From NCBI RefSeq assembly GCF_022843985.1, contig NZ_JALHMP010000019.1, forward strand, positions 1 to 64,000: 64,000 bases of DNA. Reading direction: 5' to 3'. Numbering within the stretch: the stretch's first letter is position 1; each line of letters opens with the position of its first letter. The notes below the pieces were generated by a model. The model saw nothing but the letters and a program-made list of their open reading frames with translations, was not told where the DNA came from and ran no database searches. Shown in pieces: positions 1 through 64,000 of this stretch. Position numbers and translations under genes: made by a program. Origin of the DNA: Phreatobacter sp. Lineage in GTDB: Bacteria > Pseudomonadota > Alphaproteobacteria > Rhizobiales > Phreatobacteraceae.

Positions 1-390
1 GCGGTTGCCCTCGGCGAGTCGCGTCACCAGCCCGGCCGGCTGGCGCAGGTTGCGCATCAGCGTCCGCGCCTCGGCGCCGCGCGCCTCGATCACCGCCACG
101 GCGATGCGTTCGGGACAGGCCGCCGCCGGGCAGGCGCCGACCGAGACGGGCGTCACGGTATCGCGGGTGATCCAGGCGCCGGTGGGCACGAAGACCCAGG
201 GATTGTCGGCATCGCGCGCGGCGATGTCCGGGCGCGTCGTCACCCCCTCCACCGCCACGGGCACATAGGCGCAGGAGGCGAGGACGACGGTGGCGAAGAC
301 GGCGAGGAAGCCGGCGCGGAGCAGGACGAAGGTCTCACCGGCGGCAGCCGCCGGTGCATCGAGGGTCGGCCTGCGCGCAAGAAGGCGCAT
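1..390 (-). CDS. putative lipoprotein/secreted protein (partial, C-terminus beyond window start)
   Basis: Open minus-strand frame from ATG at 390 to the window edge; translation MRLLARRPTLDAPAAAAGETFVLLRAGFLAVFATVVLASCAYVPVAVEG... has a lipobox-like LASC. Absent from the ORF track because it runs off the edge. Confidence 0.6.
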   Translation of the reverse strand, partial: MRLLARRPTLDAPAAAAGETFVLLRAGFLAVFATVVLASCAYVPVAVEGVTTRPDIAARDADNPWVFVPTGAWITRDTVTPVSVGACPAAACPERIAVAVIEARGAEARTLMRNLRQPAGLVTRLAEGNR

Positions 391-2992: not shown

Positions 2993-4186
2993 TCAGGCCG
3001 CGCCGCCCGCCAGTAGCACCTCGAGCCGGTCGAGCGCCGCAGGCGGATCAGCCTCCACGCCGCGTGCCTCCATGACGATGATGCGGTAGCCGCGCGCGGC
3101 GAGCCAGGCGCGCTTCTCGGTCCGCCGCTCGGCCGCCTCGTCCCCTTGCGTATGCGGATCGAAATCGATGACGACGCGCAGGTCGAAGGAGACGAGATCG
3201 GCCACGTGCGGGCCGATCGGCACGGCGCGCTTGAAGCCGCGGCCGGCGAAACGGCGGTCCTTGACCATCACCTCCCACAGCGCCTTCTCGGCCTCGGTCG
3301 GGTTGCGGCGGATGAGGCGGGAAATGCCGCGGATCGGCGCCGTGCCGCCGCTCAGGCCCTTGGTCGAATCGGCGAGGAAATTGCGCAGCGCCTCGGCGCC
3401 GTCCGGCGTCAGGGTGGCGCCGCGCGCCGGGCCCTTGGCACCCTCGCCGAGCGCCGTGACGACACCGTGCAGCGTCGCCACGTCCTGCTGGGTCGGCTGC
3501 ATGCGCTGGAAGATGTTGCGCAGGTTGATGACCATGCCCTCGCGCTTTTCCGGCGGGCGGAAGAACTCGACCCGGTCCAGCGCCTTCTCCAGCGAGGCGA
3601 AAAAGGCCAGCATCTGCGACTTGGTGGCGGGCTCGGAGCGCTCCTCCCCCTGATGCGGCAGCACCGCGCCATGGGCCTGGGAGAACCATTCGTAGCCGAG
3701 CACCAGCACCGCCTGAGCAAGGTTCAGCGACGAGAAGGCCGGGTTCACCGGATAGGTCAGGATGGCATTGGCCAGCGCCACCTCGCCGGCGAGCAGGCCG
3801 TTCCGCTCGCGGCCGAAGACGACGCCCACCGCCTCCCCCGCCGCAACCCGCGTCACCAGCCCTGCCACGGCCTCCCGCGGTCCGACGACCGGCTTGACCT
3901 GGTCATGGCCCCGCGCCGTGGCGGCATAGGTATAGGTCAGTTCGGCGATCGCCTCCTCGAGGGTCGCATAGACCTCCGCCTCGTCGAGGACGCGGTTCGC
4001 CCCCGAGGCCGCCGGATAGGCCCGCGCCTGGGGCCAGCCGTCACGGGGCGCCACCAGCCTGAGCCGCGACAGCCCGAAATTCGCCATGGCGCGCGCCGTC
4101 GTGCCGATATTCTCGGCCATCTGTGGCTCGACCAGGATGACGACGGGGCTGCCCGTCAGGGGGGCGGTGGGAGAGGAAAGCGTCAT
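2993..4186 (-). CDS. TrmJ-like tRNA/rRNA methyltransferase (SpoU/TrmH) with C-terminal DUF559 domain
   Basis: N-terminus VVILVEPQMAENIGTTARAMANFGLSRLRLVAPRDGWP...GVVFGRERNGLL...NPAFSSLNLAQAV is SPOUT/TrmJ-like; the last ~110 aa RLIRRNPTEAEKALWEVMVKDRRFAGRGFKRAVPIGPHVADLVSFDLRVVIDFD...RAWLAARGYRII match the DUF559 pattern. Confidence 0.9.
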   Translation of the reverse strand: MTLSSPTAPLTGSPVVILVEPQMAENIGTTARAMANFGLSRLRLVAPRDGWPQARAYPAASGANRVLDEAEVYATLEEAIAELTYTYAATARGHDQVKPVVGPREAVAGLVTRVAAGEAVGVVFGRERNGLLAGEVALANAILTYPVNPAFSSLNLAQAVLVLGYEWFSQAHGAVLPHQGEERSEPATKSQMLAFFASLEKALDRVEFFRPPEKREGMVINLRNIFQRMQPTQQDVATLHGVVTALGEGAKGPARGATLTPDGAEALRNFLADSTKGLSGGTAPIRGISRLIRRNPTEAEKALWEVMVKDRRFAGRGFKRAVPIGPHVADLVSFDLRVVIDFDPHTQGDEAAERRTEKRAWLAARGYRIIVMEARGVEADPPAALDRLEVLLAGGAA

Positions 4187-57987: not shown

Positions 57988-58602
57988 TCACTCCATCACG
58001 GCCGCCTTGAGGATGCAGACCATCACCGCATGGGCGGGTTCATGGCCGACATTGCGGATGACGTGCCGCCCGTCGCAGCGGTAGCGGGCGCTCTCGCCGG
58101 TCCCCACCGTCTCGAACCGGTCTCCCACCTCGACCTGCAATTCGCCGGACAGCACGGAGAGGCTCTCGATGGAGCCGCGCTGGTGCCCCTCGCTCTCCAG
58201 GACGCCGCCGGGATCGCACTGGAAATCATACCATTGAAGCCATTCGACGGTCTTGATCCAGCCGATGATCGACAGCCGGCACTTGCCGTCGTCGGACACC
58301 AGCAGCGGGGTATCGGCCCGCGACAGCTTCTCGAGGAAGGGCTCCTCGGTCGCCGTTGCCAGCACCCGCTCGATCGAGACGTCGAGCGCCTGGCTGAGGC
58401 GCCAGATGGTGGCGAGCGTCGGATTGGTCTCGTTGCGCTCGATCTGGCTGATGATCGATTTGGCGACACCCGACTGTTCCGACAGTTCCGACAGCGACAG
58501 GTTGTAGGCCTTGCGCAGTCGCTGCACGGTCTTGCCGAGATTGCCGGACAGCACATGGGCGCCGGCATCCATCTCGATTTTTTTCGGGTCCCGGTCGGCC
58601 AT
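57988..58602 (-). CDS. XRE family transcriptional regulator with C-terminal cupin domain
   Basis: LGKTVQRLRKAYNLSLSELSEQSGVAKSIISQIERNETNPTLATIWRLSQALDVSIERVL (HTH_3) followed by cupin-like C-terminus. Confidence 0.9.
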   Translation of the reverse strand: MADRDPKKIEMDAGAHVLSGNLGKTVQRLRKAYNLSLSELSEQSGVAKSIISQIERNETNPTLATIWRLSQALDVSIERVLATATEEPFLEKLSRADTPLLVSDDGKCRLSIIGWIKTVEWLQWYDFQCDPGGVLESEGHQRGSIESLSVLSGELQVEVGDRFETVGTGESARYRCDGRHVIRNVGHEPAHAVMVCILKAAVME

Positions 58603-58629
58603 CGGCGGCAAGGCGTCTCGTACGTTGTT

Positions 58630-58645
58630 TCGAACGATCGTTCGA
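58630..58645. promoter_or_regulatory. candidate operator palindrome upstream of XRE-cupin gene
   Basis: TCGAACGATCGTTCGA, 16-bp perfect palindrome, 28 nt upstream of the regulator start codon. Confidence 0.5.
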
Positions 58646-58718
58646 CTAAACGATCTTATGCCCTGCCGGCCCCGGGAGCAAGGATGGCGGCCCGCCATCG
58701 CCCGCCGCGGACGAGCCG

Positions 58719-59789
58719 TCACACCTCGCGCGCACCGAGAGCGGCATGGGTGGATACCCGCGTCCAAGGCCCAATCCGTCCCTGGAAGGCGGTGTAATGC
58801 GCGGCGATCTTGCCCGCCATGGCGCTGCGGGTGGCAAGTTCGCCGACCAGGTCGGCGGCATGACGGCGGGCGATCCGCACCAGCGGCGTCGGGAAGCCGC
58901 GCAGCCGGACGCCGTGGGTCGAGACCATTGTCGCCAGCGCGTCCATGTTCAGGATCTCGATCTCGGCGAGGGCGATGGCCTGCTCCGCGTCACTGGCCGC
59001 CTGGACGACACCCTTCAGGTCGGCCGGCAACCCGTCCCACAGCGCCTTGTTGACCACGAGCTCGCTCGATCCGTTCGGCTTGTTGAAGCCGGGTGCATAA
59101 TAGAATGGCGCCACCCGCCACAGTCCCAGCTGGATGTCGGAACCGGGCGAGGTGAACTCCGCCCCGTCGATCGCCCCACGCTCCAGCGACGGGTAGATAT
59201 CGCCCGGCGGGATGGCGATGGCGGTAGCGCCGAGGCGCTGGAAGAGCTCCGCCCCGAGGCCCACCATGCGGATGGTGAGACCCTTCACGTCGTCGGCCGA
59301 TTGCAGCTCCCTGCGGAACCAGCCGCCCATCGACACGCCGGTATTGCCGCCGAGGAAGGGCTTCACCCCGAACCGCGCCGCCGCCTCGTCCCACAAAGCC
59401 TGCCCGCCGCCCTTCAGCACCCAGGCATTGTGCTCGGGCGGAGTCAGGCCAAAGGGGATGGTGGTGAAGAAGGCGAGAGCCGGCTCCCGCCCGATGGCGA
59501 AGAAGGAGGCGGTATGGCCGAGTTCGACGGTGCCATTGCCCACCGCCTCGTGGACGGCGAAGGCCGGCACCACCTCGCCAGCGGCGAGGACCTGGACCTC
59601 GATCCGCCCGCCGGACAGGAGCTTGATCCGGTCGGCGATGCGCTGGGCCGAGAAGGCCGGGCCGGGCAGGTTGCGCGGCCAGGATGTGACGAGGCGCCAG
59701 CGCAGGACGGGCTGGGCCCGGACGAGACCCGGCGCGGCGATCAGGCCGGTGGCACCAGCGACAAGCGCGGAGCGGCGATTGAAGGTCAT
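58719..59789 (-). CDS. TRAP transporter substrate-binding protein (DctP/TakP-like)
   Basis: FNRRSALVAGATGLIAAPGLVRAQPVLRWRLVTSWPRNLPGPAFSAQRIADRIKLLSGGRIEVQVLAAGEVVPAFAVHEAVGNGTVELGHTASFF...YPSLERGAIDGAEFTSPGSDIQLGLWRVAPFYYAPG; ATG lies 1 nt after the thiD stop. Confidence 0.92.
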   Translation of the reverse strand: MTFNRRSALVAGATGLIAAPGLVRAQPVLRWRLVTSWPRNLPGPAFSAQRIADRIKLLSGGRIEVQVLAAGEVVPAFAVHEAVGNGTVELGHTASFFAIGREPALAFFTTIPFGLTPPEHNAWVLKGGGQALWDEAAARFGVKPFLGGNTGVSMGGWFRRELQSADDVKGLTIRMVGLGAELFQRLGATAIAIPPGDIYPSLERGAIDGAEFTSPGSDIQLGLWRVAPFYYAPGFNKPNGSSELVVNKALWDGLPADLKGVVQAASDAEQAIALAEIEILNMDALATMVSTHGVRLRGFPTPLVRIARRHAADLVGELATRSAMAGKIAAHYTAFQGRIGPWTRVSTHAALGAREV

Positions 59790-59790
59790 G

Positions 59791-60588
59791 TCACCACCAG
59801 GCGTGGAAATGATGGGTGGGCCCATGGCCGCTGCCGACCTGCAGCCGTTCCGATGCGGCGATGGCGGCAGTCACATAATCCTTTGCCTCGCTGACCGCCT
59901 GTCCCAGTGGAAAGCCCTTGGCGAGGCCGGCGGCAATGGCCGAGGAGAGCGTGCAGCCGGTGCCGTGGGTGTTGCGGGTGGCGACGCGCGGCGCCTCCAG
60001 CCGTACCGTTCCGGCCGGCGTCACCAGAAGATCGACGCTGGTATCGCCGGTGCCGTGGCCGCCCTTCATCAGCACTGCCTTTGCCCCCTGCGCCATCAGC
60101 GCCTGTCCCTGGGCGAGCATGTCGTCCTCCCCCCGTGCCACCGGCTGATCGAGCAGGGCCGCCGCCTCCAGCAGGTTGGGCGTGACGAGAACGGCGCGCG
60201 GGAAGAGCAAGCGCCGCAGCGCCGAGACCGCGTCGGGATGGAGCAGCCGGTCGCCGGAGGTCGCAACCATGACTGGATCGAGCACGACCTGGCCGACCCG
60301 GTGCCGGTCGAGCCCCGCCGCCACGGCCGCGATCACCGGCACTTGCGACAGCATGCCGATCTTGGCAGCGCCGACCTTCAGGTCGGAGAAGACCGAATCC
60401 ATCTGCGCGGCGATGAAATCCGCCGGCACGTCATGGATCGCCTGGACGCCGCGGGTGTTCTGCGCGGTGAGCGCCGTGACGACGCTGGCACCATAGACGC
60501 CGAGCGCCGAGAAGGTCTTGAGATCCGCCTGGATGCCGGCACCGCCGCCGGAATCCGAGCCCGCAATGGTCACCGCGATGGCCGTCAT
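59791..60588 (-). CDS. thiD: hydroxymethylpyrimidine/phosphomethylpyrimidine kinase
   Basis: [70 protein letters not shown]...[21 protein letters not shown]; start reassigned to 60588. Confidence 0.96.
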
Positions 60589-61391
60589 GGCGCCTCTCCC
60601 TGCTCTGGTGTCGTGATCCGCGCCCGCGCCGCGATATCGGCCGCTTCTAGACCGTAGAGGGCGTCGAGATAGGCGGATGCGAAACTGCCCGGCCCGCGCG
60701 CCGTCTCGGCGGCGCTCTCTCCGACGATTCCGAGCACGAGCATGGCGGCGGCGCTCGCCGCTCCGGCATCGTCGCCGACGGCGAGAAAGGCGGCGGTGAT
60801 CGCCGCCCCGGCGCAGCCCATGGCGGTCACCCGCGCCATCAGCGGATGGCCGTTGGCGATGGCGACAAGGCGATCGCCGTCGGTCACCACATCCGTCTCC
60901 CCGGTCGCCGCCACGACGGTGGCGAGGCGGCGGGCGATCATGGCGAGGTCCTCGTCCGGACCGAGCACCGCGATCTCGGCGCCGTTGCCGCGGATCGCCG
61001 CCGGTGCGAGCGCGGCGAGGTCGCGCGCGAAGGCGGCGCGCCCGGCCGAGCGGTCGATGAAGACGGGGTCGAGGAGCCAGGGCCGGCCGGCCGCGCTGGC
61101 CACCTCGATCGCCGTGCGGATGACGGCGCGCCGCTCCGGCTCCAGCGTGCCGAGATTGACCAGGAGCGCATCGGCGCTGCCGGCGAAGGCGGCGATCTCG
61201 TCCGGCGCCGTCGTCATCGACGGCACCGCACCGAGGGCGAGCAGCGCATTGGCGGTATAGGCCTGCGCCACCGTGTTGGTGATGCAATGGACACGCGGCC
61301 TGCGTGCACGGATCGCGGCGAGGCCGTCACGGGCGGTGTGCAGGACGCGGTCGCTGAAGTCGGAATCCCCGCTTGGGGGCCATCTGTCCAT
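60585..61391 (-). CDS. thiM: hydroxyethylthiazole kinase
   Basis: [61 protein letters not shown]...[21 protein letters not shown]; overlaps thiD by ATGA; downstream of a TPP riboswitch. Confidence 0.93.
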
Positions 61392-61394
61392 CTC

Positions 61395-61485
61395 GGTTTC
61401 CTCCGCCGGCATGACCCGGTTCAGGTACGACGGGTTGGCCTTGCGACCTCTCAGCCCGATGAGGGCACCCCGACGAGACAATGAG
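61395..61485 (-). ncRNA. TPP riboswitch (THI element)
   Basis: Minus strand CGTCGGGGTGCCCTCATCGGGCTGAGAGGTCGCAAGGCCAACCCGTCGTACCTGAACCGGGTCATGCCGGCGGAGGAAACCGAG: contains GGGGTGCC, GGCTGAGA and ACCTGAACCGGGTCATGCCGGCG THI-box elements, directly upstream of thiM. Confidence 0.95.
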
Positions 61486-61585
61486 TGACAGTTAGGCCAA
61501 GGAACCCGCCGGCGCAAGCACCGGGGGGATGACGCGCGCGCCCATTGATGGCATGGGTGAGGCCTTGCGCGCCGCGAGGGTCCCC

Positions 61586-61822
61586 ATGATCGCCTTCTTC
61601 GTCCAGATCAAATGCCAGCTCGGCAAGGCCTATCAGGTCGCCGCCGCCCTCGCCGACCGCGAGATCGCCTCGGAGATCTATTCGACCGCCGGTAATTTCG
61701 ACCTGCTGGTGAAGTTCTATGTCGAGCCCGGCACCGATATCGGCCATTTCGTCAACGAGAAGGTGCAGCTGATCCCGGGCATCCAGGACACCCATACGAT
61801 CATCACCTTCAAGGCGTTCTGA
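61586..61822 (+). CDS. Lrp/AsnC ligand-binding (RAM) domain protein
   Basis: MIAFFVQIKCQLGKAYQVAAALADREIASEIYSTAGNFDLLVKFYVEPGTDIGHFVNEKVQLIPGIQDTHTIITFKAF; no HTH. Confidence 0.9.
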   Translation: MIAFFVQIKCQLGKAYQVAAALADREIASEIYSTAGNFDLLVKFYVEPGTDIGHFVNEKVQLIPGIQDTHTIITFKAF

Positions 61823-61831
61823 CCGCGCCGG

Positions 61832-62119
61832 TCAGGGCTGGCGCTGCCGCCAGATCTGGAAGACGCCGAAGGCCAGCGTCACCATGCCGGCATACCAGAG
61901 CACCGGCACGTAGCGCGGAATCGCCCCGCGGATATTGGCCTGGAAGAAGGCGCATTCGGGTGTCGCGAAGCCGATGCAGGCGAGCTTCAGGCCGAGGAGG
62001 CCGAAGGCGCCGCCATACTGGGCATAGTAGACGAACCACCAGACCACCGAGACTAGGCAGAAGGCGAGGCCGAGATAGATGGCCGGCGGGGTCGATGTCT
62101 TCGGATCGTCCGGCGCCAT
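61832..62119 (-). CDS. hypothetical membrane protein
   Basis: MAPDDPKTSTPPAIYLGLAFCLVSVVWWFVYYAQYGGAFGLLGLKLACIGFATPECAFFQANIRGAIPRYVPVLWYAGMVTLAFGVFQIWRQRQP; about two TM segments. Confidence 0.6.
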   Translation of the reverse strand: MAPDDPKTSTPPAIYLGLAFCLVSVVWWFVYYAQYGGAFGLLGLKLACIGFATPECAFFQANIRGAIPRYVPVLWYAGMVTLAFGVFQIWRQRQP

Positions 62120-62273
62120 GAAGCCCGTCCTGCGCTGATCGTGATCCCTGCCATTTACGCGGGTTCTCCGTGGCAAGGCCAGTCTCCGCCGCATTGCGCC
62201 TTTGCGACGGCCAAGGCTTGCCTCGCAGCCGCGAAGCGTTCCATTCTGATTCCGAGTTCCCGGAGCACATGAC

Positions 62274-64000
62274 ATGACGCCGACGAAATTCGGAATGGGC
62301 CAGGCATTGAGCCGGGTCGAGGACGCGCCGCTGATCAAGGGCGAGGGACGCTTCGTCTCCGACCTGGTGCCGGACGGCGCGCTGATCGGCTATGTCGTGC
62401 GTTCGCCCTTCGCCTTCGCCGACTTCGTGATCACCGACACCAGCGCGGCCCGCGCCATGAAGGGCGTCAAGGCGATCTTCACCCATGCCGACCTCGAGGG
62501 CATCGGCAACCTGCCCTGCCTGTCGCAGATCCCCTCGGTGACCCCGATCCCCAATCCGCCCTGGGAGGTGCTCTGCTCTAAGACCGTCCGCCATGTCGGT
62601 GACGGCATCGCCTTCGTCGTGGCGGATACGCTCGACCGGGCCAAGGACGCCGCCGAGGCCATCGCCATCGAATGGACGTCGCGCGAGCCGATCATCGACG
62701 CCGTCGATGCCCTGCAGAAGGGCGCTCCCCAGGTCTGGCCCGACATTCCCGGCAATCTCTGCGGCGAGGTGCATCTCGGCGAGGCGGAGGCGACCGAGAA
62801 GGCCTTCGCCAAGGCCCACCGCACGGTGTCGCTGACCATCGTCAACAACCGCCTGGTCACCAACTACATGGAGACGCGCGGCTGCCTCGCCGAATATGAT
62901 TCCAAGGCGAAGAGCTTCACCCTGACCCTCGGAAGCCAGGGCAGCCACAGCATCCAGGCGACGCTGGCGACCCGCATCTTCAACATGCCGAAGGAACAGA
63001 TCCGCGTCATCACGCCTGATGTCGGTGGCGGCTTCGGCACCAAGACCTTCATGTTCCGCGAATATCCGCTCTGCATGCTCGCCGCCCGCAAGCTGAAGAA
63101 GCCGGTCGCCTGGGTGCAGGACCGCGGCGACCATTTCGTCAATTGCAGCCAGGGCCGCGACAATGTCTCCACCGCCACGGCGGCGCTCGACAAGCGCGGC
63201 AAGGTGCTGGCGGTAAAGGTCGACACTGTGGCCGACATGGGCGCCTATCTGTCCCAGTACGCGACCTTCATCCCCTATGTCGGCGCCCTCATGCTGGCCG
63301 GTGTCTATGCCTTCCCCGCCATGCATGTCCGGCTGAAATATGCCTATACCAACACCGTCCCCGTCGACGCCTATCGCGGCGCCGGGCGCCCGGAGGCGGC
63401 CTATCTCATCGAGCGCCTGATGGACCGCATCGCCATCGAGACCGGCATGAGCCCGGCCGAGGTGCGCCGCCGCAACTTCATCCAGCCCGACCAGTTCCCC
63501 TGGAAGACGCCCGTCGGCCGCACCTACGATTCCGGCGAGTTCGACGGCCACATGACCCGCGCCATGGCGGTCGCCGGCTGGGACGCCTTCAAGGACCGCC
63601 TGAAGGCGGCGAAGAAGGCCGGCAAGATCCGCGGCATCGGCATGGCCACCTATGTGGAGGCGTGCGGCGGCGGTGCCCCCGAGAACGCCTGGATGAGCCT
63701 GGAGAAGGACGGCACGGTGACCATCAAGATCGGCACCCAGTCCAACGGCCAGGGCCACAAGACGGCCTATGCCCAGCTCGCCTCCCAGCACCTCGACATC
63801 CCCATCGAGAAGATCAACGTCATCCAGGGCGACACCGCCCAGATTCCTACCGGCACTGGCACCGGCGGCTCGCGCTCGCTGCCCGTCGGCGGCGCCGCCG
63901 TCGATGTCGGCGCGCGGGCCCTGGCAGACGTGATCAAGGACATGGCGGCGACCGAGATGGAGGTCGGCGTCGGCGATGTCGAGATCGTCGGTGGCGCGGT
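62274..64000 (+). CDS. xanthine dehydrogenase/form II CO dehydrogenase-like molybdopterin-binding subunit (partial)
   Basis: MTPTKFGMGQALSRVEDAPLIKGEGRFVSD...VRHVGDGIAFVVADTLDRAKDAAEAIAIEW...TPDVGGGFGTKTFMFREYPL...AYRGAGRPEAAYLIERLMDRIA...GTQSNGQGHKTAYAQLAS; runs off the 3' edge. Confidence 0.93.
   Translation, partial: MTPTKFGMGQALSRVEDAPLIKGEGRFVSDLVPDGALIGYVVRSPFAFADFVITDTSAARAMKGVKAIFTHADLEGIGNLPCLSQIPSVTPIPNPPWEVLCSKTVRHVGDGIAFVVADTLDRAKDAAEAIAIEWTSREPIIDAVDALQKGAPQVWPDIPGNLCGEVHLGEAEATEKAFAKAHRTVSLTIVNNRLVTNYMETRGCLAEYDSKAKSFTLTLGSQGSHSIQATLATRIFNMPKEQIRVITPDVGGGFGTKTFMFREYPLCMLAARKLKKPVAWVQDRGDHFVNCSQGRDNVSTATAALDKRGKVLAVKVDTVADMGAYLSQYATFIPYVGALMLAGVYAFPAMHVRLKYAYTNTVPVDAYRGAGRPEAAYLIERLMDRIAIETGMSPAEVRRRNFIQPDQFPWKTPVGRTYDSGEFDGHMTRAMAVAGWDAFKDRLKAAKKAGKIRGIGMATYVEACGGGAPENAWMSLEKDGTVTIKIGTQSNGQGHKTAYAQLASQHLDIPIEKINVIQGDTAQIPTGTGTGGSRSLPVGGAAVDVGARALADVIKDMAATEMEVGVGDVEIVGGA

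Follow-up and report, generated by a model that had tools for sequence, protein, structure and literature searches.

Our data indicate that a gene for a TRAP-type substrate-binding protein (SBP) of the DctP family forms one minus-strand unit with a TPP riboswitch, thiM, and thiD in a Phreatobacter genome, and that this arrangement recurs in many families of the order. We consider it reasonably likely that the unit as a whole serves thiazole salvage in a thiazole auxotroph, with the SBP capturing the thiazole moiety of thiamine, most likely as 5-(2-hydroxyethyl)-4-methylthiazole-2-carboxylate (cHET), and working with a permease encoded in trans. TRAP receptors and TPP regulons are each of a known kind; in the open literature (subscription papers and supplements lie outside this scope), we found no description of a TRAP receptor paired with thiM, thiD, or a TPP riboswitch. 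Most likely, many soil and freshwater bacteria that lack thiazole synthesis hold, in a vitamin-switched operon, a receptor for thiazole, probably in its carboxylated form. If so, the vitamin B1 cycle would gain an uptake step that has been missing from it, TRAP transporters would join the thiamine importers, and genomes could be read as those of thiazole auxotrophs living on their neighbors' cHET. Uptake is least understood for the thiazole half of thiamine, and the question can be tested directly, given the diagnostic motif of the pocket ([EK]PNGx[GSA]E), the clear regulon, and the pattern of co-occurrence.

Organization of the thi operon

The window analyzed here is a 64,000-nt stretch of the Phreatobacter genome, and the features that concern us are collected in Table 1. 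A first-pass annotation of this DNA had described a THI element in front of thiM, an ATGA overlap between thiM and thiD, and a junction of a single nucleotide between thiD and the next gene; the coordinates and the junctions proved correct. Its assignment of the third gene to a DctP/TakP-like binding protein is borne out by the PF03480 match and a TakP-like fold, and the local lack of dctQ and dctM that it reported was confirmed, with no DctM gene present on this contig.

Table 1. Features of the thi operon and its flanks in the window
Feature	Coordinates	Strand	Evidence
TPP riboswitch aptamer (THI element), operon head	61380..61482	-	Rfam RF00059, 61.8 bits (gathering score 54.3 bits)
thiM, hydroxyethylthiazole kinase	60585..61391	-	PF02110, 197.6 bits; PRK09355, 230 bits (cut-off 180)
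thiD, HMP/HMP-P kinase	59791..60588	-	PF08543, 322 bits; TIGR00097, 328 bits
TRAP-type SBP (DctP family, TakP-like)	58719..59789	-	PF03480, 132.9 bits (cut-off 23.4)
XRE-cupin regulator, 116 nt downstream of the SBP gene, same strand	57988..58602	-	PF01381 and PF07883; synteny
Stand-alone Lrp/AsnC ligand-binding-domain protein, divergent to the operon	61529..61822	+	PF01037, 46 bits; synteny

The thiM reading frame, with its stop at 60585, could start from the ATG at 61391, which has a good Shine-Dalgarno sequence, or from that at 61412. The junction of thiD and the SBP gene, with one nucleotide after the TGA of thiD, reads TGGTGACATG, and the SBP carries a twin-arginine-like signal. We infer that thiM, thiD, and the SBP gene are cotranscribed and respond to TPP. 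Terminator-like matches occur in this region at chance frequency, the sole one within the operon lying inside the SBP gene and not upstream of it. Folding the leader by minimum energy gave no useful signal (z = 0.08), and the riboswitch call rests on the Rfam model. The window operon does not contain thiE, which is found elsewhere in the genome (contig C38, position 18050).

Two flanking genes recur with the operon. An XRE-cupin gene follows the SBP gene on the same strand in Phreatobacter, in Beijerinckiaceae-type genomes, and in some Microvirga; it may belong to the operon and is a neighbor in only part of the clade. The Lrp/AsnC-like protein lacks a DNA-binding domain, and the divergent position of its gene is conserved in many families of the order; it is a conserved neighbor whose membership in the operon is uncertain.

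Conservation of thi-linked SBPs

Orthologs of the SBP were present in all 12 Phreatobacter genomes compared, and a contig scan together with an order-wide profile search found the same clade in Microvirga, Salinarimonas, Beijerinckiaceae-type genomes, Xanthobacteraceae, and many others, as well as outside the order in Marinimicrococcus (Geminicoccaceae). The profile separates the clade from its paralogs (at least 525 versus at most 349 bits in the loci compared). Strong matches, i.e., those of at least 444 bits, which alone were scored as SBP-positive, occurred in 82 of the 398 genomes of the order and in 19 families. Weaker matches (~380-400 bits) in other families were considered as further clade members and set aside, since most belong to sister TakP-like receptors that come with a dctQM of their own.

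Gene order within the clade is strikingly stable. The thiD gene lies on the strand of the SBP gene in 72 of 74 clade loci and directly upstream of it in 69 of them, with a median gap of 39 nt as judged by BLAST edges, and the SBP gene precedes thiD in 3 loci. A thiM gene is present in 70 of the 74, and thiM-thiE-thiD-SBP is the typical order in most families other than Phreatobacter. In addition, every one of the 42 further loci tested with Rfam has an operon headed by a TPP riboswitch. The first-pass annotation had named loss of this synteny as grounds for giving up its reading; the synteny is instead kept in at least 19 families. From such sequence comparisons, both chance association and passenger status are in practice excluded. 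In a maximum-likelihood tree (74 rows, midpoint root), all thi-linked SBPs are monophyletic (support 100/99), and their neighbors are TakP-like SBPs with their own dctQM.

Thiamine genes and their co-occurrence with the SBP

The genome from which the window comes (completeness 100%) has just one further TPP riboswitch, which heads thiC, and it has thiE, thiM, and thiD as well. No ThiG match exceeded the cut-off in this genome, full-length Thi4 was not found in it (the matches over the cut-off are short N-terminal nucleotide-binding fragments), and ThiB (TIGR01254) stayed below its cut-off there (best 52.4 versus 93.4 bits). Since thiC is kept and ThiG is missing, this strain should make HMP but not thiazole.

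The same tendency is seen across the order. Among the 82 SBP-positive genomes, 68 lack ThiG and 14 have it, whereas the corresponding SBP-negative counts are 136 and 180 (p = 4e-11). Restricting the comparison to ThiC-positive genomes, the SBP occurs in 25 of 43 that lack ThiG and in 9 of 157 that have it (odds ratio 23, p ~3e-13); with Phreatobacter left out, the figures are 17 of 35 versus 5 of 153 (p = 1e-10). These tables cover 398 genomes and were transcribed by hand, and the counts ignore phylogeny, related genomes not being independent. Nonetheless, the SBP-positive, ThiG-negative state is found in 18 of the 19 families. Given this enrichment in genomes with ThiC and without ThiG, the cargo is likely to be the thiazole half of thiamine. 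The link is a tendency, and pure thiazole auxotrophs are not the only carriers of the receptor: of the 82 SBP-positive genomes, 43 have neither ThiC nor ThiG.

Fold and binding pocket of the SBP

The AF2 model of the SBP (pLDDT 84.7) superimposes on TakP, the Na+/alpha-keto-acid TRAP receptor of Rhodobacter sphaeroides (2hzk/2hzl; PMC1839085), with a Foldseek TM score of 0.88 (1.7 A, 32% identity). It also matches 4yic (1.7 A, 35% identity) and 7ug8, which contains alpha-ketovalerate and calcium. Against the dctP subfamily model of NCBIfam (TIGR00787), the SBP scores 52.7 bits, below the cut-off of 175. The carboxylate of the TakP ligand is paired with Arg177 and Tyr100. A cation, coordinated by Gln156, Glu214, Glu240, and the carbonyl of Trp215, forms a bridge to the 2-oxo and carboxylate oxygens of that ligand (PMC1839085). 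The pocket of the window SBP is lined by W37, P44, A94, F96, F97, S153, R174, E211, F212, K237, G240, S242, and E243. Thus, the fold, Arg177 (R174), and Glu214 (E211) are shared with TakP, whereas Gln156 and Glu240 have become Ser153 and Lys237, so that only E211 is kept of these three cation ligands; Tyr99 and Tyr100 are both Phe, the pocket is smaller at positions 97, 243, and 245, and a Pro stands at 47. The gene also differs from takP in its setting, a TPP-riboswitch thi operon and not the side of dctQM. Judged by its residues, the window SBP would not be a TakP-type keto-acid receptor with a cation site, and it has no linked tripartite operon.

We compared the pockets of 79 distinct clade sequences with those of 19 outgroups in TakP numbering. 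Arg177 and Glu214 are invariant in all 79 clade members, as are P47, P241, N242, G243, and E246. Changes relative to TakP include I47P, P243G, V245 to Ser, Gly, or Ala, and Y99 mostly to Phe or Leu, and position 97 is Ala in 77 of the 79; as a result of these changes, smaller side chains line the pocket, and the acid-binding Arg is retained. Position 240 is Lys in 58 members and Glu in 21 (Glu or Gln in 19/19 outgroups), and Gln156 is replaced by Ser, Cys, Asn, or Thr in 57 of the 79 (Gln or Glu in 19/19 outgroups). Lys240 had been considered as a marker of the whole clade, an idea dropped on wider sampling, because the 21 members with Glu240, most of which also keep Gln156, make the lysine a later change; the clade markers are therefore P47, P241-N242-G243, and E246. 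Tree parsimony requires at least three Glu-to-Lys changes at position 240. The pocket descends from that of keto-acid receptors (TakP), and the lysine ammonium at 240 may take the place of the cation. The repeated replacement of Glu by Lys at the cation site amounts to a natural experiment on the ion dependence of TRAP receptors.

Candidate ligands

That the SBP has a role in thiamine salvage is nearly certain in our judgment, and a thiazole-type ligand is quite probable. Narrowing the ligand to cHET itself is a step that we favor somewhat over its alternatives taken together. Because the carboxylate-binding Arg is conserved, carboxythiazole fits better than 5-(2-hydroxyethyl)-4-methylthiazole (HET), thiamine, or HMP; moreover, a ligand with a carboxylate beside the ring nitrogen, such as cHET, could fit both types of pocket (Glu240 and Lys240), although the replacement of residues that hold the cation could point to another ligand for the Lys subclade. 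Of the cargoes that the first-pass annotation had listed, thiazole gained support (thiC kept, thiG lost) and HMP lost it, with carboxythiazole now preferred on account of the retained carboxylate Arg. It has been reported that E. coli and algae use cHET through ThiM and that its uptake systems are of "unknown sequence identity" (PMC5899164). In river water, median concentrations were 80-220 pM for cHET and 3-5 pM for HET in one river study, and in fresh water the level of cHET can be far above that of dissolved thiamine (PMC10807462).

The closest competitor leaves the rest of the operon reading unchanged and has the SBP bind the uncarboxylated alcohol HET. All of the genomic evidence for thiazole salvage applies to it equally, and HET is the textbook substrate of ThiM, a HET kinase, yet it has no carboxylate to offer to an Arg177-Glu214 pair that never varies in the clade, and the 21 Glu240 members, most with Gln156, keep the cation-dependent acid site of TakP. 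Together with the scarcity of HET relative to cHET in the single freshwater study (PMC10807462), this makes HET an unlikely ligand. Intact thiamine, HMP, or a pyrimidine degradation product would suit the genomes without ThiC and ThiG, which would need both halves; thiD, whose product acts on HMP, is in the operon, and most known TPP-regulated importers carry thiamine or HMP (PMC10881298). On the other hand, thiC is kept in the window genome and in 24 other SBP-positive genomes without ThiG, thiM neighbors the SBP gene at 70 of the 74 loci, and neither thiamine nor HMP has a carboxylate for Arg177 and Glu214, so that we regard this cargo as rather improbable.

It is also conceivable, if very unlikely, that the SBP has kept an ordinary 2-oxo acid as its ligand (pyruvate or a branched keto acid), for instance as a carbon source or as the substrate of a thiamine-dependent enzyme, and is merely co-regulated by TPP. 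Many TPP enzymes do act on 2-oxo acids, and the nearest solved relatives, TakP and 7ug8, bind keto acids; but other residues stand in for Gln156 and Glu240 in the window SBP and most of the clade, the pocket floor is altered throughout it (P47, G243, and a small residue at 245), TakP-like paralogs with a canonical site are encoded separately in the genome, and the enrichment in ThiG-negative genomes would go unexplained. As for the SBP gene being an unrelated passenger beside thiD with its own promoter, the lack of dctQM in the operon speaks for it. The 1-nt gap, the same gene order in 19 families whose wider neighborhoods differ, and the fact that no promoter-like site was found in 58000-63000 reduce that option to a marginal one.

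Comparison with known systems

The Bordetella bronchiseptica BB0280 receptor (4yic/4yzz), though 35% identical to the SBP, keeps Gln156 and Glu240 and has no known link to thiamine. The 4yic ligand, which we take to be picolinate, is a 2-carboxylated N-heterocycle and would resemble cHET chemically, an analogy that serves as a lead only. In Firmicutes, ThiW is encoded beside thiM and is a TPP-regulated, predicted thiazole importer. ThiW is an ECF-type membrane component, in contrast to the periplasmic TRAP receptor of Alphaproteobacteria described here, and may thus be seen as a functional analogue from a different protein class. ThiBPQ, ThiXYZ, ThiT, PnuT, ThiV, and CytX likewise serve TPP-riboswitch-controlled uptake for thiamine salvage (PMC10881298 and general knowledge), but they belong to other transporter classes and their ligands are thiamine or pyrimidine. 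No TRAP-type transporter and no importer of thiazole or cHET is included in a list of thiamine-related transporters (PMC10881298), nor is either named in the main-text passages searched of a TPP regulon survey (PMC3766115).

Proposed mechanism and the membrane partner

We propose that, when TPP is scarce, the riboswitch would permit expression of thiM, thiD, and the SBP gene. The SBP would be exported to the periplasm, capture the thiazole half (most likely cHET), and deliver it to a TRAP permease whose dctQM genes lie elsewhere. The imported thiazole would be phosphorylated by ThiM, HMP-PP would be supplied by ThiC and ThiD, and ThiE (contig C38) would join the two halves. The suggestion of the first-pass annotation that a TRAP receptor for a thiamine precursor is under TPP control is supported by the synteny, the conserved riboswitch, and the loss of thiG. 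A broader scenario, to which we give slightly less than even weight, is that a cHET TRAP receptor replaced de novo thiazole synthesis across the Hyphomicrobiales, with the Na+ of TakP replaced by lysine at least three times, yielding a cation-independent receptor with a borrowed permease.

No dctQM was found next to the SBP gene in any thi-linked locus examined, and the transport step therefore rests on an unlinked permease. The idea that a distant dctQM is itself preceded by a THI element did not hold for the window genome: no such pair was found there, the second riboswitch belonging to thiC. This genome has about 20 DctM genes and further TakP-like SBPs that are paralogs of the thi-linked one. 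A TakP-type dctQM at C2:159300-162100 has no in-line SBP, a TakP-like SBP gene being located nearby in convergent orientation. The DctM genes on contigs C5 and C14, considered as orphan partners, were rejected as fused TAXI-type TRAP permeases beside TAXI receptors. In the 2.6-Mb genome G032, the long TakP-type form of DctM occurs just once, together with an SBP and a DctQ of its own; if the thi-linked SBP of G032 uses a TRAP permease, this would be the obvious one. The permease in trans would probably be a TakP-type dctQM shared with a paralogous SBP.

Variant thi loci

Most of the Microvirga loci scanned have two divergent THI elements ~90 nt apart. In locus L065 (positions 3462-3761), one element drives thiC and the other thiM-thiE-thiD-SBP; divergent pairs are also present in L061, L066, L069, L072, L076, L078, L080, and L093. 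Two clade SBPs (L177, 7685-8674, and L162, 7913-8932) have no adjoining thiM or thiD, that of L177 still being located beside an AsnC-like gene, and either secondary loss of linkage or a changed function would account for them. Finally, a match to PYLIS_3, a pyrrolysine insertion element, was recorded at 232-330 (+) of L148 in an alphaproteobacterial genome (42 bits) and is probably due to chance.
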